From positions 1-29,936 of the IMG/VR virus record IMGVR_UViG_3300048797_000131: 29,936 nt of DNA; one strand, given 5' to 3'. Numbering within the stretch: position 1 is the stretch's first letter; the number at the start of each line of letters is the position of its first letter. The notes beneath the pieces are model-generated. The model saw nothing but the letters and a program-made list of their open reading frames with translations, was not told the DNA's origin and did not search any database. Source of the stretch: a virus. The position numbers and the translations under genes are program-made. This document shows positions 2,008 through 13,588 of the stretch, in pieces.

Positions 2008-5000
2008 TTGCGCCGCTTCGACGCCTACCGTCTCACGGACGGCGACAACATCGGTGACCCGCGTGTCCTGAATGCCCGCTTCGACGACGTGGACGGGCGC
2101 CTCGCCCAAGTCGAAGCGATTTCCATAGACGCGGACGCGGCCATCGCGGCGATAACGGCGACCGGGCTCCAGCGCCTCAACGACGCGCTTGCCCCGGCCT
2201 TCGCAGAGGCCGCCGCCCTGGCTGACGTGGGGGTGTGGTTCTCGGCCCATTCGACGACGGACAACGTGGTCGAAAACGGCATCAAGATCTTCCAGCTCGA
2301 CGAAGTGGACCGCCAGCGGTTCGCGCCGGCAGCTTACCTAGCCATGTTCGGCGCCACTGATGTGACCAAGGCGATGATGGGCGCCCTGGTGTCCTACGAC
2401 CGGACCACGGGCACGCTAACGGTGAACGTGGACCGCTCGGCCGGCGGCCCGAGCTACAATGACTGGAATATCTCGGCCGCGTCTGCGACCGACTACGCTA
2501 CGGCGGCCGAGGAGGCGGCAGCCAGTGCGGCGGCTGCGGCGGCCAGCTTGGCTCTTGTCGTCAGCGACAAGACGGACGTTGTGAACTACCTGGACACCGC
2601 CCTCTCGGCCCGCAATGACGCGGAAGCCGCGCGGGATGAGGCGACGGCAGCGGTCGCGTCCATTGCCGCCGATGCCGCCTCGGCGGCCTCGGACGCGGCG
2701 GGTGCGGCGACCTCGGAAACCAACGCCGGCATTTCGGAGGCGGCAGCTCTCGCCAGCTCCACCGCGTCAACGGCCTCGGCCGCCAGCGCCGCTAGCCATG
2801 CGGCCGACGCCCTTGCTTCTGACACTTCGGCTGCCGGCCATGCTTCGGCCGCTGCCGCTTCCGACACCTCGGCAGCGGCGCACGCCACCGCTGCCGGCGC
2901 TTCCGACACCTCAGCGGCCGGGCACGCCACCGCCGCCCTCGCCTCGCAGACGGCGGCGGCGGGCAGTGCGACCGCTGCGGCCGGCTATGAGGCGGCGGTG
3001 GTCGCGGCGGGTGCGAGCTACGGGCAAATCTGGCTAGGCGCCCATGCCACGGACCCGGTTCTCGACAACGTCGGCGGGGCGCTTGTCCAGGGGGCGGCCT
3101 ACCTAAACACGACCACCGGCTATCTCAAATACTATTTGACGGGCGCGTGGACGAACGTGGTCGTGCCCACAGGCTCGTCAGTGCTCTCCGCCTTCGGGCG
3201 TACCGGGGCAGTCGTCGCGGTGGCGGGGGACTACACCACTGCCCAAATCTCGCGCTCGGCGGTCGGCGGCATCGCCGGCATCACGACGGAGCTGGCGCTT
3301 GTAGACCTCAAGGCGCAGATCGACACCAAGCAAGCCGCTGCGGCGCTCACCGCCTATGGGCTCACCCTGGTGGGGCTCGCGGACGCCTCGGCGCTGCGGA
3401 CCAACCTCGGGCTGGTCATAGGAACCGACGTCCAGGCGTATGACGCCGAGCTGGCAGCTCTGGCCGGGCTCGTCTCGGCAGCCGACCGTCTGCCCTACTT
3501 CACCGGCTCCGGGGCCGCCAGCCTCGCCGTCTTCACGGCGGCCGGGCGGACCCTGGTTGCGGGAGCGGACGCCTCGGCGCAGCGGACCACCCTCGGCGTC
3601 CGCCCTGGGACCGACGTTCAAGTCTACAACGCGACCCTAACCAGCATTGCCGCCCTCGGCAGCGGGGCGGACAAGTTCGCCTACACGACGGCGCCCAACA
3701 CGTGGGCGGAAGGAAGCATGACGGCCGCCGGGCGGGCCATAGCGGCGGGCGCCAGCGCGGCGGCGCAGCGAACGACGCTCGGGCTGGTCCCCGGAACCGA
3801 TGTCCAAGTCTTTGACGCGACCCTCACGTCCCTGGCGGCCCTGGGGACGGGCGCTGACAAGCTCGCCTACACGACCGGGGTGGACGTATGGGCGGAAGCG
3901 TCAGTCACGTCAGCGGGGCGCTCTGTGCTGGCGGCGGCCAATGCAGCGGCGATAGTCACCTTCCTGGGGCTCGGGATAGGCTCCGCCGTCCAAGCCTATG
4001 GCGCCGGGCTCACCCCGCTTGGTGGGCTAGTCTCGGCGGCGGATCGCGTCCCGTACTACACCGGGAGCGGGACGGCTGACATCGCCGCCTTCACGGCCGC
4101 CGGCCGAGCTCTGGTGGGCGGAGCCAGCGCGGCAGCGCAGAGGACGACGCTTTCCCTGGTCCCCGGCACCGATGTCCAGGCTTATGACGCGACCTTGCTC
4201 TCCATCGCGCTCCTCGGGACCGGCGCTGACAAGCTGGCCTACACGACGGGCGTTGATACGTGGGCGGAGACGGGCCTGTCCTCTGTCGGGCGGACCTTGA
4301 TTGCCGGCGGCAGCGCCTCGGCCATGCAGGGCACGTTGCTTCTGACGCCGGGGACTTACACCCAAGCCTATGACGCCACCCTCACGGCGATTGCGGCTCT
4401 CGGGACGGCTGCCGACAAGCTGGCCTACACCACGGGGATAGACACATGGGCCGAGGCGGCGTTCACCGCCACCGGCCGGTCGATTGTCGCGGGCGCCAAC
4501 GTGGCGGCGGTCCAGGGCACGCTCTCGCTTACGCCGGGCACCAACGTCCAGGTCTACGACGCCACCTTGACCGCCATTGCCGCCCTGGGGACGGCGACGG
4601 ACAAGATGATCTACACGACCGGGGTCGATACGTGGGCGGAGCTGGCGGTCGGGGCGACCGCGCGGACCTTCCTTTCAGGGGCGTCAACGACCGCCATGCG
4701 GTCCACCCTAGGCGTCGCCATCGGGGCGGACGTGCAAGCCTATGACGCCACCTTGCTCTCGATTGCCTTATTGGGCACGGGTGCGGACAAGGTGGCGTAT
4801 GCGACGGGCGTCGATACGTGGGCAGAGGCCACGTTCAACGCCCTCGGCCGGTCCCTCGTGGGCGCCGCCAGCGTGGCGGCAGCGCAGACCGCGCTCACCC
4901 TGGTCCCCGGAACCAACGTCCAGGTCTACGACGCCACGCTCCTCTCGATTGCGCTCCTCGGGACGGCGGCCAATAAGCTCGCCTACACGACCGGCGTTGA

Positions 5001-5376
5001 CACATGGGCGGAGACGGGCCTGTCCGCCCTCGCCCGGAGGCGTCTCGCCAAGGTTGTCACCTCAGTGGCGTCATCCGCCACACCGGGGCCGAACTGTGAC
5101 ACAGACGAGCTTTATGAGCTGACGGCGCTGGCGGCCGGGGCGACCTTCGCCGCGCCGACCGGCTCGCCCGTGGACGGCGAGATCCTTCGTATCCGGATCA
5201 AGGACAACGCCACGGCGCAGACCTTGGCCTTCAACTCAGGCGCGGGCGGCTATCGCGCCGGCACCGACCTCGCGCTGCCGACGACGACGGTTCTTTCCAA
5301 GACCATGTATCTCGCCTTTCAGTATAACGGCGCGGACAGCAAATGGGACTACGTCGCGCAAGTCGGGAACATCTAA
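2008..5376 (+). CDS. Tail fibre protein with nine 62-residue repeats
   Basis: This 1122-residue protein starts at a TTG, six bases after a GTGAGG ribosome-binding site. The start is supported by the MRRFDAYRLTDGDNIGDP opening typical of fibre N-termini. Residues about 1-150 are likely the particle-binding part. Residues about 165-335 are alanine-rich with recurring SDTSAAGHA units, a probable trimeric coiled coil or helical shaft. Around 339-385 is the IWLGAHATDPVLDN and AAYLNTTTGYL segment seen in many phage fibres, followed by an FGRTGAVVAVAGDYT motif. Nine 62-residue units then run from residue 467 to about 1010. The last 110 residues are beta-rich (EILRIRIKDNATAQTLAF). It lies downstream of the DUF4815 gene, where P2-like phages keep their H fibre gene. 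The role is host recognition; the receptor is unknown. Confidence 0.85.
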   Translation: MRRFDAYRLTDGDNIGDPRVLNARFDDVDGRLAQVEAISIDADAAIAAITATGLQRLNDALAPAFAEAAALADVGVWFSAHSTTDNVVENGIKIFQLDEVDRQRFAPAAYLAMFGATDVTKAMMGALVSYDRTTGTLTVNVDRSAGGPSYNDWNISAASATDYATAAEEAAASAAAAAASLALVVSDKTDVVNYLDTALSARNDAEAARDEATAAVASIAADAASAASDAAGAATSETNAGISEAAALASSTASTASAASAASHAADALASDTSAAGHASAAAASDTSAAAHATAAGASDTSAAGHATAALASQTAAAGSATAAAGYEAAVVAAGASYGQIWLGAHATDPVLDNVGGALVQGAAYLNTTTGYLKYYLTGAWTNVVVPTGSSVLSAFGRTGAVVAVAGDYTTAQISRSAVGGIAGITTELALVDLKAQIDTKQAAAALTAYGLTLVGLADASALRTNLGLVIGTDVQAYDAELAALAGLVSAADRLPYFTGSGAASLAVFTAAGRTLVAGADASAQRTTLGVRPGTDVQVYNATLTSIAALGSGADKFAYTTAPNTWAEGSMTAAGRAIAAGASAAAQRTTLGLVPGTDVQVFDATLTSLAALGTGADKLAYTTGVDVWAEASVTSAGRSVLAAANAAAIVTFLGLGIGSAVQAYGAGLTPLGGLVSAADRVPYYTGSGTADIAAFTAAGRALVGGASAAAQRTTLSLVPGTDVQAYDATLLSIALLGTGADKLAYTTGVDTWAETGLSSVGRTLIAGGSASAMQGTLLLTPGTYTQAYDATLTAIAALGTAADKLAYTTGIDTWAEAAFTATGRSIVAGANVAAVQGTLSLTPGTNVQVYDATLTAIAALGTATDKMIYTTGVDTWAELAVGATARTFLSGASTTAMRSTLGVAIGADVQAYDATLLSIALLGTGADKVAYATGVDTWAEATFNALGRSLVGAASVAAAQTALTLVPGTNVQVYDATLLSIALLGTAANKLAYTTGVDTWAETGLSALARRRLAKVVTSVASSATPGPNCDTDELYELTALAAGATFAAPTGSPVDGEILRIRIKDNATAQTLAFNSGAGGYRAGTDLALPTTTVLSKTMYLAFQYNGADSKWDYVAQVGNI
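3406..5037 (+). repeat. Nine tandem 186-bp coding repeats in the tail fibre
   Basis: Units begin at exact 186-base steps from 3406 (3406, 3592, 3778 and so on to 4894); the ninth is cut short near 5037. A typical unit reads LxLVPGTDVQAYDATL, then SIAxLGTGADKLAYTTG, then VDTWAE, then GRxLxAGASAAAxRTT. Units 1 and 4 share a variant middle (GLVSAADR-PY-TGSG) that is absent from the others, which points to duplication of a multi-unit block rather than one unit at a time. Confidence 0.9.
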
Positions 5377-5378
5377 AG

Positions 5379-5816
5379 ATGAAAACGTTTCGATCAAAGC
5401 AAGAGTGGTCGCCCGATACGTGCGGATGCACCTTCGAGCAGACGTTCGAGTATGAAGACGATCCGCAGCGGACCAAGCCCGGCGTCTTCGTCGAGCACAG
5501 GCTGGTGACCCGCTGCGCGCATCACGCGCCGCATAGCGAGGAAGGCGTGGCAGGGGAGAACTACGTCAAGAACGTCGCGCTCACGCTGCTCACGCAAGAG
5601 CACGTTGGAGCGGACGGGAAGCCGGTCCTCGATGTAACCGAGCATGACTGGCACATGGACGCTGCGAGGACGATCCACATCATCCCGCACCCCGATATGC
5701 CGGCTGACAAGGTTGACGCCTTCGCCGCCAAGTGGGAGGCGCTGACTTCGCACCCGCTAGAAAAGCCGTGGCCGAGCGTTTGGCTAGGACACAAGGTGAG
5801 CGTCGCGCGTGTCTAA
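5379..5816 (+). CDS. Hypothetical protein (145 aa), distal tail region
   Basis: The chosen start is the ATG at 5379, two bases after the fibre stop codon. An upstream in-frame start at 5343 would lie inside the fibre gene and is less likely. The protein opens MKTFRSKQEWSPDTCGCTFEQTF and has four cysteines/histidine-rich stretches, including CGC near residue 16 and CAHHAPH in the middle, which could bind a metal. No membrane segment is seen. It overlaps the next gene by eight bases. Both this gene and the next use more A/T-ending codons than the rest of the tail block, suggesting shared recent acquisition. Function unknown. Confidence 0.65.
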   Translation: MKTFRSKQEWSPDTCGCTFEQTFEYEDDPQRTKPGVFVEHRLVTRCAHHAPHSEEGVAGENYVKNVALTLLTQEHVGADGKPVLDVTEHDWHMDAARTIHIIPHPDMPADKVDAFAAKWEALTSHPLEKPWPSVWLGHKVSVARV

Positions 5817-7047
5817 ATCCCTGCTCTTGGCTAGCCCCGGCACTAGCAAAGCGAACGCGGTCGTTTTTGCCGGCATCGGGTGCTCGAACGTCGATCAGCA
5901 GACGAACGGCACAGTCGAAGCCGACATGAAATATCGGGTTCGCGCGCCGGGCACGGTGCGGAACCTTTGCGTTCGGACGGCCGCGACGACGGCGGGCGGC
6001 ATCACTGTCCTCAGCCGCAAGAACGGCGCGAATGGCAATCTGACGGTGACGATCAACACGTCGAGCAGTGGTTTTTTCAGCGACACGGTGAACGCGGACA
6101 CTCTCGCAGCCGGCGACGATTTTTGCTGGAGCTGGAATGACACGAACGGCCAGCCGGCCACGATCACGGCAGAGTTTGATCCGACCGGCGCCCAAGTATC
6201 GTTTTTGGAAAGCGTGTCCGGTGGCGCGTCGGGAGCTGGCGAGGCTATCACGACCGCATCATCAACCCGCTACCAGTCGTTTGGAGGGGCGGTCTGCGGG
6301 TCGGCCGATATTATTACGACCGAAGCTAATGTCCAATCCAAAATGCGCGCGGCCGGTACAGCGTCACATCTTCAAGCCTTTGTCCATGCAAATGCCCGCA
6401 CGACGACGACGACGATCAACTATCGCAAGGGCGGGGTTATCGGCGCACAAGTCTTGACGATTGGCAGCACAGCGTCGGGGCTTTTTGAGGACACCACGCA
6501 CACTGATGCGGTCGCGTCCGGTGATCTTATCAGCGCGGGAGTTGTGACGCTGACAGGCACGGCCAGTCTAGCGTTGAGCCGAGTTGGAATTCTCATAACA
6601 TCGAACAACGAGAGCATCGACTTAATCGGGCAGACGGGCTTTCCCCCAGGCGCTGGAGCGAATTTCTACACATATATCGGAGGCCGCTCGACGGGCGGCG
6701 GGACGATGTTGACCACCGAAAGCGGTGCTCGCGCACAGGTTCCTTTTCCCGCGTCCTTTAAGAACATGCGTTGTTATGTGCAGGGGACGCAGGAGAGCAG
6801 CCCCGGAACACTGAAGTTTCGCAAGAACGCCGCAGCGGCCTTGCAGACGGTCACTCTGACGGCAGCGACAAGTGGGTGGTTTGAGGACGTGACGAACACG
6901 GACACGCTCAATGCTCTAGACGACTGTGACCTTGCCTTTACCTATGGCGGCGGGGCGAACGGGCCGTTCATTTCTTCGTTGGGCGTGACGATGGTCGGGC
7001 CGGTGACGGTCCAGGGCGGTCAAGGCCGCATGTTCGCAGCGTTTTGA
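5809..7047 (+). CDS. Three-fold repeated structural protein, candidate tail tip/receptor-binding protein
   Basis: The start is a GTG at 5809 giving MSKSLLLASPGTSK and overlapping the previous gene by eight bases. The 412-residue protein is three diverged units of about 133 residues. Each has an RK-motif block at residues about 70-103, 206-240 and 338-371 (RKNGANGNLTVTI..SGFFSDTVNADTL; RKGG..SGLFEDTTHTDAV; RKNA..SGWFEDVTNTDTL), preceded by a block resembling KYRVRAPGTVRNLCV. The units are rich in beta-strand-forming residues and glycine. There is no signal peptide or membrane segment. GC is lower than in neighbours; I counted 32 of 60 in 6541-6600. Its place after the fibre suggests a tip or decoration protein. 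Function is inferred from position only. Confidence 0.6.
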   Translation: MSKSLLLASPGTSKANAVVFAGIGCSNVDQQTNGTVEADMKYRVRAPGTVRNLCVRTAATTAGGITVLSRKNGANGNLTVTINTSSSGFFSDTVNADTLAAGDDFCWSWNDTNGQPATITAEFDPTGAQVSFLESVSGGASGAGEAITTASSTRYQSFGGAVCGSADIITTEANVQSKMRAAGTASHLQAFVHANARTTTTTINYRKGGVIGAQVLTIGSTASGLFEDTTHTDAVASGDLISAGVVTLTGTASLALSRVGILITSNNESIDLIGQTGFPPGAGANFYTYIGGRSTGGGTMLTTESGARAQVPFPASFKNMRCYVQGTQESSPGTLKFRKNAAAALQTVTLTAATSGWFEDVTNTDTLNALDDCDLAFTYGGGANGPFISSLGVTMVGPVTVQGGQGRMFAAF

Positions 7048-7346: not shown

Positions 7347-7559
7347 ATGGCAGCCACCCTTTCGACCACCTTGCAGACCGTCCTCGCGGATGGCGTGGGC
7401 AGCATTGCGGTGACGCCCATAGTGCCGGACGGGGACCACTTCGTCCGCGAAATCCGGGTGATGACGGATGACACCGAGCCGGTCCCGCTTTTCATCCTGA
7501 GGCTCCGCGCAACCACTGCTCTGGAGCTCGATTTGACCACCCCACCGTTGAGCTTCTGA
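7347..7559 (+). CDS. Small hypothetical protein (70 aa)
   Basis: The ATG at 7347 follows a TAAGGT ribosome-binding site. The 70 residues (MAATLSTTLQTVLADGVG onward) are mostly beta-prone with a central DGDHFVREIRVMTDD segment. There are no cysteines or membrane helices. It sits in the tight run of three small genes between the lower-GC distal-tail protein and the sheath, so it is probably a minor tail component or assembly factor. The family is not recognised. Confidence 0.6.
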   Translation: MAATLSTTLQTVLADGVGSIAVTPIVPDGDHFVREIRVMTDDTEPVPLFILRLRATTALELDLTTPPLSF

Positions 7560-7572
7560 GGAGCGAGAGCCC

Positions 7573-7800
7573 ATGCCGTTTTACATCATGCGCAGCGGAG
7601 CGGACGGCAAGCCGCAGTATGCGGAGATCGTCGATGGCGTCTTCACCTGGACGCCGGACAAGGACCAGATGACGGTCTGGAACCAACGGCAGAAGGCGGA
7701 GAACATCATCGCGTCGCAGACGGCGAGCGGCGTTATCAAGGACATTGACAAAGCGGTGGCGCGCGAGCGTCCCGACCAACCCGGCGGAGAAACCTCATGA
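7573..7800 (+). CDS. Small hypothetical protein upstream of tail sheath (75 aa)
   Basis: The gene has an AGGAGCGAGAG ribosome-binding site and an ATG at 7573. The protein starts MPFYIMRSGADGKPQYAEIV; its second half (NQRQKAENIIASQTAS) is helical and charged. Its stop overlaps the sheath start by four bases (ATGA), so the two are translationally coupled. That coupling suggests a partner of the sheath or tube, but no family is recognised. Confidence 0.6.
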   Translation: MPFYIMRSGADGKPQYAEIVDGVFTWTPDKDQMTVWNQRQKAENIIASQTASGVIKDIDKAVARERPDQPGGETS

Positions 7801-9641
7801 CGCAGCCCACCTTCGGCTTTACCATCGAGAGCGTACCGGAAGAAGCACGCCCGGCTATCTATTCCGACATGAGCGTTGTCGGGCTGGTGGGCACGGCTCC
7901 CAATGCGGACCCGTCCAAGTTTCCACTCAACGTTCCGGTTCACATGTTCTCGAACGACGCGGCGATGCAGTTGTCGCTCGGGACCGGCGGGACCCTGCTT
8001 GACGCCGTCCAGGCGGTCAACGACCAGCTCGCGGATTTTCAAGTGGCCGCCCGGACCGTGATTGTGCGGGTCGCGGCAGACGTTGACCCGGACGTGGAGC
8101 TGGCCAACGTCCTCGGCAATGAGGACGTGTATTCTGGGATCTATGGGCTTCTCAGGGCCGGCGTCTCGCTTGGCGTCATTCCGCGCCTGATCGGCGTCCC
8201 CGGCTACACGGTCCAGCACTTGGTTGAGCCGGGAACGGTCCTAGTCACGTCGGGTCCCAAGGCCGGCGGCAACACCGGGACCGGGCTCTTGACCCTGGTC
8301 GCGGGTGACGGCTCCCACGGGGTTGGCGTCCAGCCGGGCACCTATCAGGTCCGCTGCATCGGCGGGGCAGCCGCCGCGACCTCGGCCGCAGTGGCCGGCG
8401 GCGGCAACGGCACGATCACCATGGCCGCCCCCTCGGCGGTCGGCAACGCCAAGCTCGGGGACTGGCGCTTGACCTGCATCGCGACGGGCGTCAACGGCGG
8501 GACCTTCCAGGTTGAGGACCCGGACGGCATCACGCGCGGCGTGGTCGCGGTTGGGACGCCGTTCAACGGGGACATCAAGTTCACGATCAATGACGGCTCG
8601 GCGGACTTCGTGCTCGGTTCCGTCTTCGTGGTGACCGCCGCTCCGGCGGTCCCTGCCGGCGGTGGCGTGTTCAGCGTGCGCCGGCCGGACGCGACCATGG
8701 GCGCCAACGCGACGGAGGGCGTCGCCTACACCGGCCAGATCAATTTCACGATAGCGGCCGGCGGGACGGAGTTCATCGTCGGGGATGGCTTCGACGTGGT
8801 TGTAGCCGTGACTTCCGGGCTGGCGGACGCCAACGTCATCGTCGCGGCCCTGGACGGCATCCTCAACCGGCTTCTCGGCGTTGCGGTTGTCGATGGCCCG
8901 TCTGACAGCATCGAAACCTATCAGGCGTGGCGGCAGACGATCTCCTCAAAGCGGATCATCCCGTGCGCCATGGCGGTCAAGTTCGGCATCTATGCGGACA
9001 TCAAGCCGATGAGCCCGCGCGTCCTTGGCCAGATCGTCTCGGTTGATTTCGAGAACGCCGGGCGGCCGTTCCACTCCGCAGCCAACCGGCCGCTGGCGAA
9101 CATCGTCGGCCCGAACCGGGACGTGGACTTCAACCTTCTGGACGGCGCCACCGAGGGACAGGTGCTCCTCGCCGCCAACGGCGGGATCGTGGTCCGGGGC
9201 GAAATGGGTGTCGAGAACGCCATTGCGTCCGGCGGCTTCATCTACGTCGGGACCGACACTTGCAGCGAAGACCCGCTATGGACGTTCTACCATGAGGTTC
9301 GCGGGCGGGACTTTATCCACCTCGCCTATCTGAGGACGCTCCGCTACTACCTGGGGCGCTTCAACATCACCGGGCAGGCGATCCAAGCCGTGGTCAACAC
9401 CATGGCGTTCATCCTCCGGGACCTCAAAGCGGACAACGACATTCTTGGCTACCGGATCAGCTTCACCAAGGATGAAAACTCGCCTGAGGAGCTGCGCCTG
9501 GGGCACTTCATGATCGACTTCGCGGCCGAGGAACCGCCCGTGCTGCGGTTGATCGGCATCAAGTCCGCGAGATACCGGCCGGCCCTGGACACTCTGATGA
9601 CCGACCTCATGGCACAAGTGGACCTCCAGGCCGCCGCGTAG
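7797..9641 (+). CDS. Contractile tail sheath protein (P2 FI-like) with inserted decoration-type domain
   Basis: This 614-residue protein forms the contractile outer tube that drives injection. The N-terminal part (MTQPTFGFTIESVPEEARP, then SVVGLVGTAPNA) and the C-terminal part (YYLGRFNITGQAIQAVVN, LGYRISFTKDENSPE) match the sheath family, and the tube gene follows directly, as in P2. Residues about 158-337 are an extra module not needed for the sheath core. It contains two copies of a sequence like RLTCIATGVNGGTFQVEDPDG followed by IKFTINDGSADFVLGSVF, a pattern I know from head decoration proteins. One copy appears nested inside the other (see findings). The insertion probably faces outward on the sheath surface. 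The start overlaps the previous gene by ATGA. Confidence 0.9.
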   Translation: MTQPTFGFTIESVPEEARPAIYSDMSVVGLVGTAPNADPSKFPLNVPVHMFSNDAAMQLSLGTGGTLLDAVQAVNDQLADFQVAARTVIVRVAADVDPDVELANVLGNEDVYSGIYGLLRAGVSLGVIPRLIGVPGYTVQHLVEPGTVLVTSGPKAGGNTGTGLLTLVAGDGSHGVGVQPGTYQVRCIGGAAAATSAAVAGGGNGTITMAAPSAVGNAKLGDWRLTCIATGVNGGTFQVEDPDGITRGVVAVGTPFNGDIKFTINDGSADFVLGSVFVVTAAPAVPAGGGVFSVRRPDATMGANATEGVAYTGQINFTIAAGGTEFIVGDGFDVVVAVTSGLADANVIVAALDGILNRLLGVAVVDGPSDSIETYQAWRQTISSKRIIPCAMAVKFGIYADIKPMSPRVLGQIVSVDFENAGRPFHSAANRPLANIVGPNRDVDFNLLDGATEGQVLLAANGGIVVRGEMGVENAIASGGFIYVGTDTCSEDPLWTFYHEVRGRDFIHLAYLRTLRYYLGRFNITGQAIQAVVNTMAFILRDLKADNDILGYRISFTKDENSPEELRLGHFMIDFAAEEPPVLRLIGIKSARYRPALDTLMTDLMAQVDLQAAA

Positions 9642-9671: not shown

Positions 9672-10214
9672 ATGGCGAACACCGTTTACATGATGACCGC
9701 CGCAAACCTGTTCTGCGGCGATGCCGACCCTACCAACAGCAAGCATCTGACGCTCACCGAGTTGAAGCTGCCGCTGTTGCAGGCCATCCACGTCGATCAT
9801 CACCCCGGCGGGTCGAAGGTGGCGGTCGAGATCGAGGTTGGCATCCAGAAGTTCACGCCGACCTTCAAGCTGGCCGGCTATGACCCGGACCTGTTGATCC
9901 AGTTCGGCTTGAGCGGCAAGAAGAAAAACATCTACACCGCCTATGGTGTGGTCGAGGACTTGCGGACTGGCCTCAACATCGAGGCCAAGGCCATCTTTGA
10001 GGCGAAGCTCGGCAAGCTGGACCCTGGGGCCTTCACGCGGGGAAACAAGCTGGAGCACGACTACGCTCTCAATGAAGTCGTCCACTACGAGATATGGTTC
10101 GACGGCAAGGAAAAAGTCTTTTGGGACTTCTTCCTCAACGCGTGGCGGGTCAACGGGGTGGACGAGCAGGCGGACGCCAACCGCATCTTGCGCATCCCGG
10201 CCGCTGCGGCCTAG
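9672..10214 (+). CDS. Major tail tube protein (P2 FII-like)
   Basis: This 180-residue protein polymerises as the inner tube through which DNA passes. It opens MANTVYMMTAANLFCGDAD and contains the tube-family features HHPGGSKVAVEIEVGIQKF, FKLAGYDPDLLIQFGL and VVHYEIWFDGKEKVFWDFF. Length agrees with P2 FII-type tubes. An AAAGGG ribosome-binding site precedes the ATG. It lies 30 bases after the sheath and about 100 bases before the chaperone gene, the canonical order. The hairpin at 10250-10285 lies in that gap. Confidence 0.9.
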   Translation: MANTVYMMTAANLFCGDADPTNSKHLTLTELKLPLLQAIHVDHHPGGSKVAVEIEVGIQKFTPTFKLAGYDPDLLIQFGLSGKKKNIYTAYGVVEDLRTGLNIEAKAIFEAKLGKLDPGAFTRGNKLEHDYALNEVVHYEIWFDGKEKVFWDFFLNAWRVNGVDEQADANRILRIPAAAA

Positions 10215-10312: not shown

Positions 10313-10648
10313 ATGGCCACCGCGCCAGTCACTTACACGCTTAAAACTCCGCTCCAGGACGCCGACCGGACGGTCACCACGTTGACCTTCGCTCCGCGCC
10401 TGGACATCGAAATGATCGAGACGCTGGTTGATGACTTGGGCATCAAGTTCGACCTGGACACCGGAAAGATGCTGCCCGGCCAGAAGGTCACCATGCGGGA
10501 CACGCGCCGGCTGATGGCGGTCCTCTGCGACGAGCCTTTTGATCTTCTCGGCCGTCTGACACCGGAGGACTATTCCGGCATAGCGACCGTTATCGGCCCT
10601 TTGTTGCAAGGGCTACAGGCCACGGCGGCAGCTCCGCCGACATCATAG
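10313..10648 (+). CDS. Tail assembly chaperone, short form (P2 gpE-like)
   Basis: The ATG at 10313 is the likely start; longer in-frame extensions run back into the tube gene. The 111-residue protein (MATAPVTYTLKTPLQDADRT) has the beta-then-helical plan of P2 gpE family chaperones, with VTMRDTRRLMAVLCDEPFD and LTPEDYSGIATVIGPLL near the end. It should bind the tape measure protein while the tail tube is assembled. Position between tube and tape measure is the universal place for this gene. A CCCTTTG slippery site at 10597 lets a share of ribosomes make the longer form. Confidence 0.8.
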   Translation: MATAPVTYTLKTPLQDADRTVTTLTFAPRLDIEMIETLVDDLGIKFDLDTGKMLPGQKVTMRDTRRLMAVLCDEPFDLLGRLTPEDYSGIATVIGPLLQGLQATAAAPPTS

Positions 10649-10830
10649 GCGTCCACCAGCTGATCGCCTTTTGGGCTAGGTACGGGGACACCATAGTCGC
10701 GGAGACGGCGCACTTTCTGGCGACGCCCTATCCCGCGCTCCGGCGGGAGCCGCTTGAGCGGCTGATCCGAATGCACCGGGAAGCCGTCCGGCTGTCCCGA
10801 GTTCTAGCGGGAGAGAACCCCGATGGCTGA
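10313..10830 (+). CDS. Tail assembly chaperone, -1 frameshift product (P2 E-E'-like)
   Basis: After codon 97 (TTG at 10601-10603) a -1 shift opens a frame that starts GTT at 10603 and runs 75 codons to a TGA at 10828-10830. The added part reads VARATGHGGSSADIIGVHQL, then IAFWARYGDTIVAETAHFL, then a basic, helical end (LERLIRMHREAVRLSRVLAG). The total is about 172 residues. The -1 frame is closed upstream by a TGA at 10540, so the slip must occur between there and 10648. The extension overlaps the tape measure start by eight bases. P2 E/E' and lambda G/GT use the same strategy. The short form alone would leave about 170 bases uncoded, which supports this reading. Confidence 0.8.
10597..10603 (+). 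promoter_or_regulatory. Programmed -1 ribosomal frameshift heptamer CCCTTTG
   Basis: The zero-frame codons are GGC CCT TTG, so the heptamer is C-CCT-TTG and fits X-XXY-YYZ exactly. After slipping, the tRNAs re-pair on CCC and TTT. It lies 45 bases before the zero-frame stop and is the only good heptamer I find between 10541 and 10648. Confidence 0.75.
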
Positions 10831-13588
10831 GCTGACCTCTGCCCTGGTTATCCAACTGATCGACCAAGTGACCGCGACGGCCGAGAAGGTCACTGCGGCG
10901 CTCAACAAAATGGGGACGGCCGCGCAAACCATTGGCGGCCCGGCAGCGGTCCAGCACACCAGCGCGTTCGCCACTCAGCTCGGCCGGGTCCAGTCCGCCT
11001 TCGTGGGGATGCAAGAGGCGCAACAGAACCTCCTCGGCGCTATCGGCTCTTATTACATCTTGAAAGAAGCCATCAAGGAGCCGGTCGCAGCCGCCCGCGA
11101 GTTTGAGGGCGCCCTGGTGGACTTGCAGAAGCGCCTCGGCCTGATCGGCGGCACGGTGACCATGCGTGGCATCCGTGACGAAATCGTCGGCATCTCGCAA
11201 CAGCTCGGCATTGCTGAGCCGGAGCTGGCGAAGATGTACGCCACGCTCTACTCCGGCGGCGTTCCGCTGGAGCGGATCAAGGACATGACGGTCCAGTTCG
11301 GCAAGTGGGCCATCGCCTTAAACGTGCCGGCGGGGGAGCTGGCGAGCCAGCTTCTTGAGGTCAAGCACGCGGCCAACCTAAGCGACCAGGAGCTGACCAG
11401 CCTAGTCAACACGACGACGCTATTGCACAACAAGACGGGCGTAGCGGCAGCGGACCTTATCGAGATAGTCCGCACGGTTGGCGCCTTCAACAAGATCGCC
11501 GGCTTGAGCACCGACGAGACGGCGGCCCTGGGGGCGGCCTTCGAGCGGACCGGGCTTTCAACCGGACAAGCCACGACCACGATGAGCTATCTAACCAAGG
11601 TGCTCACCGCCGGCTCCGGCGCAACCAAGGATCAAAAGAAGTACCTTGAGGAGCTTGGCTTCTCCGCCGAAGGGCTGGCGGCGTCCATGCAGAAGGACGC
11701 CATCGGCACGATCCAAGACTTCATTGGTCACCTCGCGCAGATGCAGAACAAGGAGCTGCTGGCGACCGCGTTGACGCACCTGTTCGGCGCGGGCGTCCGG
11801 GGCGCCAGCAAGAGCATCGCGGACAGCATCGGCAACTTTCAGCTTTTCACCGAGACGCTGGACCAGCTCCAGAACCCGGCCCGCGCGTCGGCCGCGCAAG
11901 ACGCCTTCGCCAAGCAGATCGCGACCTCCGGCTTTGCCATCGACAAGTTCATGAATTCCGTGAAGGACCTCACGGCGGCCCTTGGCTCCGGGCTGGTCAA
12001 GGTCCTCGGGCAAGCCAGCGGCGCCCTGGGGCCGCTCATAGACGCAGCCACCCGTCTGGTCGAGAAGTTCCCGGAAGCGACCGGCATCCTCCTCGGCGTG
12101 GCCGCCAGCTTCGTGGTCTTGAGCATTGGCGCGTCTCTGGCGAACTACGCCTTCCGGGGCGCGGTGCTGGCCTTTGAGGCGTTGAAGCTGGCGCTCCTAC
12201 CTATTCAGCTCGCGCTCACCGGGCTGGCGTGGCTCATGGGCACCACGGTGCTCGCAGTCGGCGCCCTGGTGGGCGTCGTCGTCTTCGCGGCCGTCGCCAT
12301 CTACCGCAGTTGGGACAAGCTCTCCAAGGACCTGAAAGAGATTTTCACCGGCAACCCGTTCCTCGGGCTGCATCACTTTATTTACGACCTCGGCCAAGCG
12401 TTTGCCAACCTCGCGCTCGACGTTCTCAATTATGCAAACGACATTTTCAAGGGGCTGACCGGCATCGACTTGAGCAGCGTCATCCGGGCGTTCGTGGCCA
12501 TGGCCGGCAAGTTTGTCGATGTCGGCATCGCCTGGGGCAAGGCCATTGTGACCGGCATCCTCCAGGGCATTGCGGACGCGGCTGTCAGCCTCGCCCAAGC
12601 CGCCAAGGACGCCATCATGAACCCCGGCGGCGTCCACGCCGTGCCGAACATGCCGCAGACGGGCGGCGTCCACTTGCTGCCCAACGGGACCTTCGGCGCT
12701 CTCCCTGGCCGTGCTGCCGGCGGCCCGGTCTATGCCGGACAGAGCTACATGGTGGGCGAGAAGGGGGCGGAGACGTTCGTGCCGGACGTGTCCGGCCGCA
12801 TCTTCCCCAAGGGGCACGTGACGGGCGCCAGCGTCATGGCGGACCTCATCAAGCTCGGCTGGACGAAGGACGAGGCGGCGGCAGCGGCCGGCGTCGCCAT
12901 GGGCGAGAGCACCATGCGGCCGGGCGTGGTCAACTCGGTAGGCGCGACCGGCTTGTTCCAGATGCTTTCATCCGACCGCAAGGGTGGGATGCTGCGCTTC
13001 GCCGCCGCGACTAACCGCAAGTGGGACGATCCGCACATGCAGGCCGAGTGGTACAACCTGGAGCGAACCGGCGGGTCTGTGAAGTACGGCGGCTCGGACG
13101 AGCGCGCCAATTTCCGGCGGGCGCTCCGGGGAGGCGAGGCCGGGCAGATGTCAGCCAATCTTGAGGCCCTGGTCCAGCGGCCGGGCGGTGGCATCGCCCA
13201 AGGCATGGGGCCGGGGCTCGCCAGCTCCGCGCGGGCCTGGAGGGACGCCTACAAAGAGGGCGACGTCGGCCCGAACATAGCGGACTACTCCCACGGCGCC
13301 GGCAAGTCGCACGCCTTCGCGTCCATTGGCGGCCCTGGTGGCGTCGGCGGCCGTGGCGGCCGCGCCGGAGGCGGCTCGGGGCTCGCCGGCGGGGTGACGG
13401 CCGGCGGCGGCGAGGGCGGCCCGTCCACCATGCACACGTCAGTCGAGGGCGTCAGTCTGACCCTCAACTTCTATGGGGACTTCGGCAACCCCGAGGACAT
13501 CGCCAACACGGTGCGGGGCAGCCTCAACCAGTATGTGACGGACACCTTCCAAGGGGTGTACTCTGACACCGGCCTTCGCTTCACGTAA
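10823..13588 (+). CDS. Tail tape measure protein with C-terminal tail lysozyme domain
   Basis: The 921-residue protein sets tail length and probably helps the genome cross the envelope. Residues about 85-300 resemble the TP901-type tape measure core (REFEGALVDLQKRLGLIGG, SQQLGIAEPELAKMYATLY). Residues about 411-497 hold several hydrophobic helices (GILLGVAASFVVLSIGASL; LAVGALVGVVVFAAVAIY). Residues about 668-790 look like a phage tail lysozyme domain (LIKLGWTKDEAAAAAGVAMG, then ESTMRPGVVNSVGATGLFQM), with the E of GES as probable catalytic glutamate. A glycine-rich linker (about 833-868) leads to a conserved-looking C-terminus. The lysozyme would open peptidoglycan locally during injection. 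The ATG lies inside the end of the E' frame, so the two are coupled. Confidence 0.88.
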   Translation: MAELTSALVIQLIDQVTATAEKVTAALNKMGTAAQTIGGPAAVQHTSAFATQLGRVQSAFVGMQEAQQNLLGAIGSYYILKEAIKEPVAAAREFEGALVDLQKRLGLIGGTVTMRGIRDEIVGISQQLGIAEPELAKMYATLYSGGVPLERIKDMTVQFGKWAIALNVPAGELASQLLEVKHAANLSDQELTSLVNTTTLLHNKTGVAAADLIEIVRTVGAFNKIAGLSTDETAALGAAFERTGLSTGQATTTMSYLTKVLTAGSGATKDQKKYLEELGFSAEGLAASMQKDAIGTIQDFIGHLAQMQNKELLATALTHLFGAGVRGASKSIADSIGNFQLFTETLDQLQNPARASAAQDAFAKQIATSGFAIDKFMNSVKDLTAALGSGLVKVLGQASGALGPLIDAATRLVEKFPEATGILLGVAASFVVLSIGASLANYAFRGAVLAFEALKLALLPIQLALTGLAWLMGTTVLAVGALVGVVVFAAVAIYRSWDKLSKDLKEIFTGNPFLGLHHFIYDLGQAFANLALDVLNYANDIFKGLTGIDLSSVIRAFVAMAGKFVDVGIAWGKAIVTGILQGIADAAVSLAQAAKDAIMNPGGVHAVPNMPQTGGVHLLPNGTFGALPGRAAGGPVYAGQSYMVGEKGAETFVPDVSGRIFPKGHVTGASVMADLIKLGWTKDEAAAAAGVAMGESTMRPGVVNSVGATGLFQMLSSDRKGGMLRFAAATNRKWDDPHMQAEWYNLERTGGSVKYGGSDERANFRRALRGGEAGQMSANLEALVQRPGGGIAQGMGPGLASSARAWRDAYKEGDVGPNIADYSHGAGKSHAFASIGGPGGVGGRGGRAGGGSGLAGGVTAGGGEGGPSTMHTSVEGVSLTLNFYGDFGNPEDIANTVRGSLNQYVTDTFQGVYSDTGLRFT

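Follow-up and report, generated by a model that had tools for sequence, protein, structure and literature searches.

The stretch of viral DNA analysed here, hereafter called the window, comprises the 29,936 bases of IMG/VR virus record IMGVR_UViG_3300048797_000131 and carries a tail sheath gene on its forward strand (Table 1). In PHROG this open reading frame matched the family annotated 'tail sheath'. The pyocin R2 sheath PA0622 matched the encoded protein by sequence with an E-value of 9e-15, and the pyocin R2 sheath chains were the top Foldseek matches of its predicted structure, with TM-scores of 0.80-0.81 when normalised to the pyocin chain. A Pfam search of the protein matched no sheath model. 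A first-pass annotation, made from the DNA letters alone, had proposed a tail sheath, and the PHROG family together with the pyocin sheath, by sequence and by fold, bears this identity out. The sheath gene is followed downstream by a tail tube gene (9672-10214, PF04985) and then by a tape measure gene (10823-13588, PF10145). No head genes were recognised in the 29,936-base record.

Several other forward-strand reading frames accompany these genes. A tail-fibre-type frame of 1122 aa with a TTG start (2008-5376) contains nine repeat matches to each of the tail fibre families phrog_24210 and phrog_2631. A 412-aa frame 5' of the sheath (5809-7047) has at least two repeats around the motif G[FW]F[SE]D...NxDTLxAxDD, and no confident family was found for it in Pfam or PHROG. 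Two small frames (about 7347-7557 and 7573-7800) lie directly upstream of the sheath; the first ends in LDLTTPPLSF, similar to the LNITTPTLSF that ends a frame upstream of the sheath of the relative L003. A small tail gene precedes the tape measure (about 10313-10648) and is followed by a longer, overlapping reading frame that stays open to about 10826. This arrangement resembles the tail chaperone pairs made by frameshift and may be one of them; no clear slippery site was identified in the overlap. The tape measure protein includes a Phage_lysozyme2 domain at residues 671-754 (E 3.8e-9).

Sheath residues are numbered as the position in the reading frame minus 16. The alignment with the pyocin sheath pairs residues 7-143 and 348-572 of the window protein and leaves residues 144-347 with no pyocin counterpart. 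Since the pyocin chain has nothing between the two matched blocks, about 200 residues are inserted at a single point, which agrees with the earlier claim that a unit had been inserted into the sheath. The insert sits in one loop, 3' of PGYTVQH and 5' of the helix that begins ANVIVAAL.

Table 1 Features of the tail sheath gene in the window.
Feature	Positions	Strand	Basis
Tail sheath gene	7797..9641	+	614 aa, stop included; phrog_23, E 6e-42; pyocin R2 sheath by sequence and fold
Sheath core, N-terminal part, residues 1-141	7797..8219	+	Aligns with pyocin sheath 6-139 and with insert-free sheaths
Whole insert with linkers, residues ~142-344	8220..8828	+	No counterpart in pyocin sheath, L003/P0004 or other no-insert sheaths
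A1, strands 1 and 2 of outer module A, residues 158-194	8268..8378	+	Module HMM 2-34, 7.5 bits; 0/2000 shuffles; predicted strands
B, complete inner module, residues 202-282	8400..8642	+	Module HMM 4-83, 85.3 bits; seven predicted strands
A2, later strands of outer module A, residues 286-337	8652..8807	+	Module HMM 31-83, 49.5 bits; predicted strands
Sheath core, C-terminal part, residues 345-614	8829..9638	+	Residues 348-572 correspond to pyocin sheath 139-354, i-Evalue 1.3e-10

Two nested modules in the sheath insert

A profile of 85 positions for a module of about 85 aa was built from 96 sequences of IMG/VR relatives. Its seed was a consensus written by the analyst, and the profile was later rebuilt from matches; a search with the module consensus gave 252 places in IMG/VR, 80 of which were kept. 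Against this profile the insert matched in three pieces, A1, B and A2 (Table 1), with A interrupted by B at about profile position 31 and B itself uninterrupted. As read from these matches, the insert is one complete module inside another of the same family. The first-pass annotation had placed the pieces at residues 158-190, 203-281 and 288-337, with the complete unit sitting inside the split one, and both the ranges and the nesting stand, since the complementary matches to A1, B and A2 are found in the window sheath and, in the same order, in 11 further full-length sheaths (L214-L221, L223, L224 and L228). A partial sheath (L222) also has this order. Within the set, L216 comes from the same phage as L203, L223 resembles L224, and L226 is a fragment that lacks A1. 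The relatedness of the two units was evident when the joined pieces of A were aligned with B: the local score was 93, and none of 2000 shuffles was as high (shuffled mean 33, SD 6).

A1 is weak alone in the window sheath, and its weight comes from the relatives. Its low score there, together with an alignment to B that is not above chance by a simple method, would suit an insert consisting of B and a truncated second copy (A2), preceded by a glycine-rich linker. Yet the A1 segment, at 12.4 bits, reaches a score attained by 0 of 2000 shuffles, and 0 of 500 shuffles scored as high in each of 12 other nested proteins, in which A1 matches the very part of the module that is missing from A2. In 111 sheaths without the nested insert, the A1 score was 4.7 bits at most. 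Aligned sheaths conserve an A1 sequence of approximately GGNTGxGxLTLAS...GVYQVRCIGG, including the GVYQVRC-type residues, and A1 is predicted to form strands. Further, when the outer pieces are joined into A, those from 11 sheaths and from one head protein copy (that of contig G011, described below) fall into one clade with 98/98 support. The conserved residues, the shuffles and this clade rule out a mere linker, the shuffles and the 111 control sheaths rule out low complexity as the source of the nest, and an insert without nesting is left with hardly any probability. The sequence order alone would also be compatible with two interleaved domains, in which A1 pairs with the second half of B and the first half of B pairs with A2. 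B alone, however, fully matches single modules of decoration proteins, and the outer halves joined as A make up the single clade just mentioned; such crosswise pairing is very improbable as well.

The nested order is also seen in structural prediction. The AlphaFold2 model of the whole sheath had a mean pLDDT of 79.8, with values of 60-92 in blocks of the insert, and the insert modelled alone was confident and all-beta (pLDDT 86.7, pTM 0.70). Strands were predicted at 164-167 and 181-189 in A1, at 209-214, 221-231, 234-240, 246-251, 255-257, 260-264 and 276-284 in B, and at 291-295, 315-320 and 331-338 in A2. With two strands in A1, seven in B and the remainder in A2, B occupies the loop that joins the second strand of A to the third, which accords with the nesting claimed for the sheath. 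The completeness of B, with the sequence match, leads to the inference that A1 strands pair with A2 strands. The best Foldseek match of the insert in the PDB was the flagellar junction protein FlgL, a weak match covering about one unit (E 2.7e-3, probability 1.00), and among viral models there was one match at E 1.3e-4. The insert also resembled, weakly, the fold of the 774-aa tail sheath of Microcystis phage LMM01 (BFVD Q2L551; probability 0.94, E 4.5e-2), which may itself carry a related domain. No Ig-like Pfam family matched the window sheath or the module; FlgD_ig was matched below its cut-off in the relative L214 only.

No homologue of the module was found by sequence among solved structures, and no family covers it in the copies of Pfam and PHROG that were searched. 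The window insert had no match in the phage collection at E 1e-5. The L216 insert gave only partial-length matches there, never reaching 80%, and the collection accordingly yielded no nested unit. A tblastn search of the phage collection with the module consensus likewise gave no match, perhaps through low-complexity masking, and the same consensus did match in viral_contigs. A search centred on Hyphomicrobium (class and order, 782 genomes) listed reading frames of 212-368 aa, none of them sheath-sized.

Occupancy of the sheath loop and selection on the insert

More than 100 sheath relatives found with a sheath profile have either no insert or an unrelated insert at the same site. In most the loop measures 24-25 residues and is empty. 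Others carry an unrelated insert with GSGY-like repeats, in a region of 100-112 residues; Klebsiella phage KA2-1 and Achromobacter phage Mano repeat the GSGY units at this place in differing number. A group of 586-588-aa sheaths (L016, L017, L018, L019, L021 and L022) has a longer insert of different sequence in the same loop. The module was not found in the no-insert sheaths, the GSGY-insert sheaths or the L016-L022 type.

The rates of synonymous and nonsynonymous change were compared by the NG86 method in the phages L216 and L218, whose sheath proteins are 97% identical. dN/dS was 0.024/0.310, or about 0.08, in the insert and 0.0125/0.513, or about 0.02, in the core. Judged from this single pair, the insert is under purifying selection and about threefold less constrained than the core.

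These observations bear on the possibility that the insert is a neutral product of recombination, collected by an insertion-tolerant loop as a mobile module with no function of its own. The loop is indeed empty, filled with GSGY repeats of varying number or filled with A and B, depending on the phage, and head decoration genes are likewise found with or without the module. Against this, 12 full-length sheaths whose overall identity to the window sheath is 42-51% all retain the A/B arrangement, the dN/dS of the insert is low, and a neutral stretch of about 200 aa in so abundant a structural protein would be expected to degenerate or disappear. Neutrality is therefore considered unlikely.

The module in head decoration and other virion proteins

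Unit B matches a 'head decoration protein' of Pseudomonas phages (E 1e-5), which upholds, by comparison with decoration families, the relation to head decoration proteins suggested in the first-pass annotation. Many proteins of the lambda gpD type (PF02924, phrog_49; for example those of Pseudomonas phage Lodos and Cyanophage Cy-LDV1) carry the same module of about 85 aa. In the Cy-LDV1 protein, residues 3-205 span positions 2-116 of the PF02924 profile with the module inserted, and the same is seen in L225 (residues 12-308 against 7-113), L227 (4-319 against 2-116) and L163 (5-298 against 2-101). Because the PF02924 core flanks the module in these proteins, the module is an insertion inside the core. 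Four gpD-type proteins (L225, L227, L163 and L275) were found to contain the whole nested unit; the reading frames of L225 and L227 stand between an S49-type protease frame and a capsid-type frame, the neighbours having been identified by eye. Two decoration-type frames, L206 and L165, have two modules in tandem, each scoring about 101-108 bits, an arrangement unlike the nest.

The module also occurs outside gpD. It is C-terminal in a cement-type capsid protein of Phage WC36-2, after the cement-type domain, and in Bhz54 and the related Ab19 it lies at the N-terminus, ahead of a phrog_687 part. The module is therefore accessory and is not the capsid-binding fold. The further suggestion that a capsid-type surface domain had been placed on the sheath needs correction in this respect, as the shared part is the accessory module inside the gpD core; the window sheath has the module without that core, and PF02924 matched neither the sheath nor the insert.

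Nine contigs with nested sheaths were searched whole for PF02924, and a match was found in eight. The module lies within the PF02924 frame in six of these (G005, G006, G008, G010, G011 and G012), the match in G011 being weak at 16.6 bits, while G004 and G009 have a 136-aa gpD frame without the module although their sheaths have the nest. In G011 the nested unit is present in both a 324-aa head frame and a 641-aa sheath frame. The two copies are 62% identical over 183 aa, and the head copy is 66-67% identical to the sheath copies of L216 and L222. In the tree, A of the G011 head copy joins the sheath A group and its B joins the sheath B group, each inside the sheath sequences, so that the nest moved as one piece. 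The identities and these placements show that the nest has been passed whole between head decoration and sheath genes; a single surface cassette thus seems to be exchanged by phages between their heads and tails. As to the earlier suggestion that the nest was made on the sheath, the nest is present there but was not necessarily made there, the same nest being found in gpD-type head proteins.

Age and origin of the nest

A of the window is about 30% identical to its own B and 69-70% identical to A of L214, the highest value against the A of any other phage. With identities of up to 70% between A units and about 30% between A and B, the nest must be older than the split of these phages. Trees in which A and B of the window were forced to be sisters gave p-AU values of 0.043 and 0.025, and together with the identities this rules out a recent self-duplication in the window. 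When all nested A and B units were constrained to one clade, p-AU was 0.165 with the head-protein copies included and 0.113 with doubtful rows left out. The first-pass annotation had described the domain as duplicated within itself. That A and B belong to one family is confirmed and a recent duplication is excluded; p-AU values of 0.11-0.17 neither show nor reject an ancient one, and these trees do not settle between an ancient self-duplication and the insertion of a relative from another branch of the family.

Three other tree-based suggestions were set aside. An apparent rejection of a common origin of the sheath A and B units (p-AU 0.0023 and 2e-66) was confounded by head-protein copies that fall inside those groups and had been left outside the constraint. 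One tree suggested independent nesting in L163, and one clade was not rejected (p-AU 0.43). Exchange of B between sheath lineages was also suggested by trees, and again one clade was not rejected (p-AU 0.23 and 0.36).

A broader proposal is that the nested pair is a mobile cassette that shuttles whole between head decoration and sheath genes, so that one phage shows the same binding surface on capsid and tail, and that the loop of A serves as a standing dock for exchange of the inner module. This proposal is put forward tentatively, as somewhat more doubtful than probable.

Proposed function of the insert

The explanation favoured here, and considered fairly probable as a whole, is a two-domain accessory cassette on a contractile sheath. 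Module A is set into a loop of the sheath core that tolerates insertions, and module B, of the same family, into the loop of A between strands 2 and 3, as the sequence, the 11 further full-length sheaths and the predicted secondary structure show. Head decoration proteins of the lambda gpD type harbour the nested unit within their chain as well, and identity and tree show that it has moved whole between head and sheath genes. By analogy with known sheaths, the core would assemble and contract as usual and every subunit would show an A/B pair on the outside of the tail. Added domains of known sheaths lie away from the tube, and for Ig-like sheath domains a role in adhesion or stability has been proposed (PMC9230969). 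Phage virion proteins of many kinds commonly include Ig-like modules, which are associated with weak binding to surfaces (PMC7602432). The A/B pair may accordingly serve as an additional surface patch whose numerous weak contacts engage glycans of the cell surface or other ligands, either from the tail only or from tail and head together, a role for which belief and doubt are about equally balanced.

The pair might instead act as a stabiliser, A and B of one subunit touching neighbouring subunits and reinforcing the extended sheath. Such a role was proposed for domain II of phage 812 and has been discussed for sheath additions generally (PMC9230969), and purifying selection on the insert would fit it. 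Most close relatives, however, have no insert or an unrelated one at this place, so the site does not need A and B, and the same unit occurs in gpD-type head proteins, where contacts between sheath subunits cannot be the selected property. Stabilisation of the sheath is thus given little probability, and the presence of the unit in head proteins favours display over sheath-specific cementing.

A module inserted in its own relative, in a nest that has moved whole between proteins of an icosahedral head and of a helical tail, is a clear case of two-level domain insertion, and it marks both the sheath loop and the module loop as insertion points accepted by evolution. It further indicates a family of modules for which the searched copies of Pfam and PHROG contain no model. 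Since gpD proteins and sheaths occur with nothing, one module or the nest, they offer a natural comparison for the role of such modules on the virion surface.

Comparison with known systems

Inserts of GSGY repeats, as in Microcystis phage Mae-JY30, KA2-1 and Mano, share the site and the sheath family with the window insert; their repeat sequence is unrelated and arranged in tandem, whereas the window insert is nested. Multi-domain sheaths such as those of T4 (gp18) and phage 812, and types 2 and 3 in general, resemble the window sheath in having a conserved core to which beta domains have been added on the side away from the tube, and some of their added domains are built from two regions of the chain, as here (PMC9230969). 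In the window sheath, by contrast, a second member of the same family interrupts the added domain, and the pair is shared with head decoration proteins; a text search of PMC9230969 found no mention of such a nest. Promiscuous Ig-like modules, known from T4 Hoc and from a survey cited in PMC7602432, are likewise small beta domains found in unrelated head and tail proteins of the virion, and weak binding to surfaces has been proposed for them. The window module differs from these in having no Pfam Ig match, and its nearest solved fold is, weakly, part of FlgL. Accessory beta domains on phage virions are already known.
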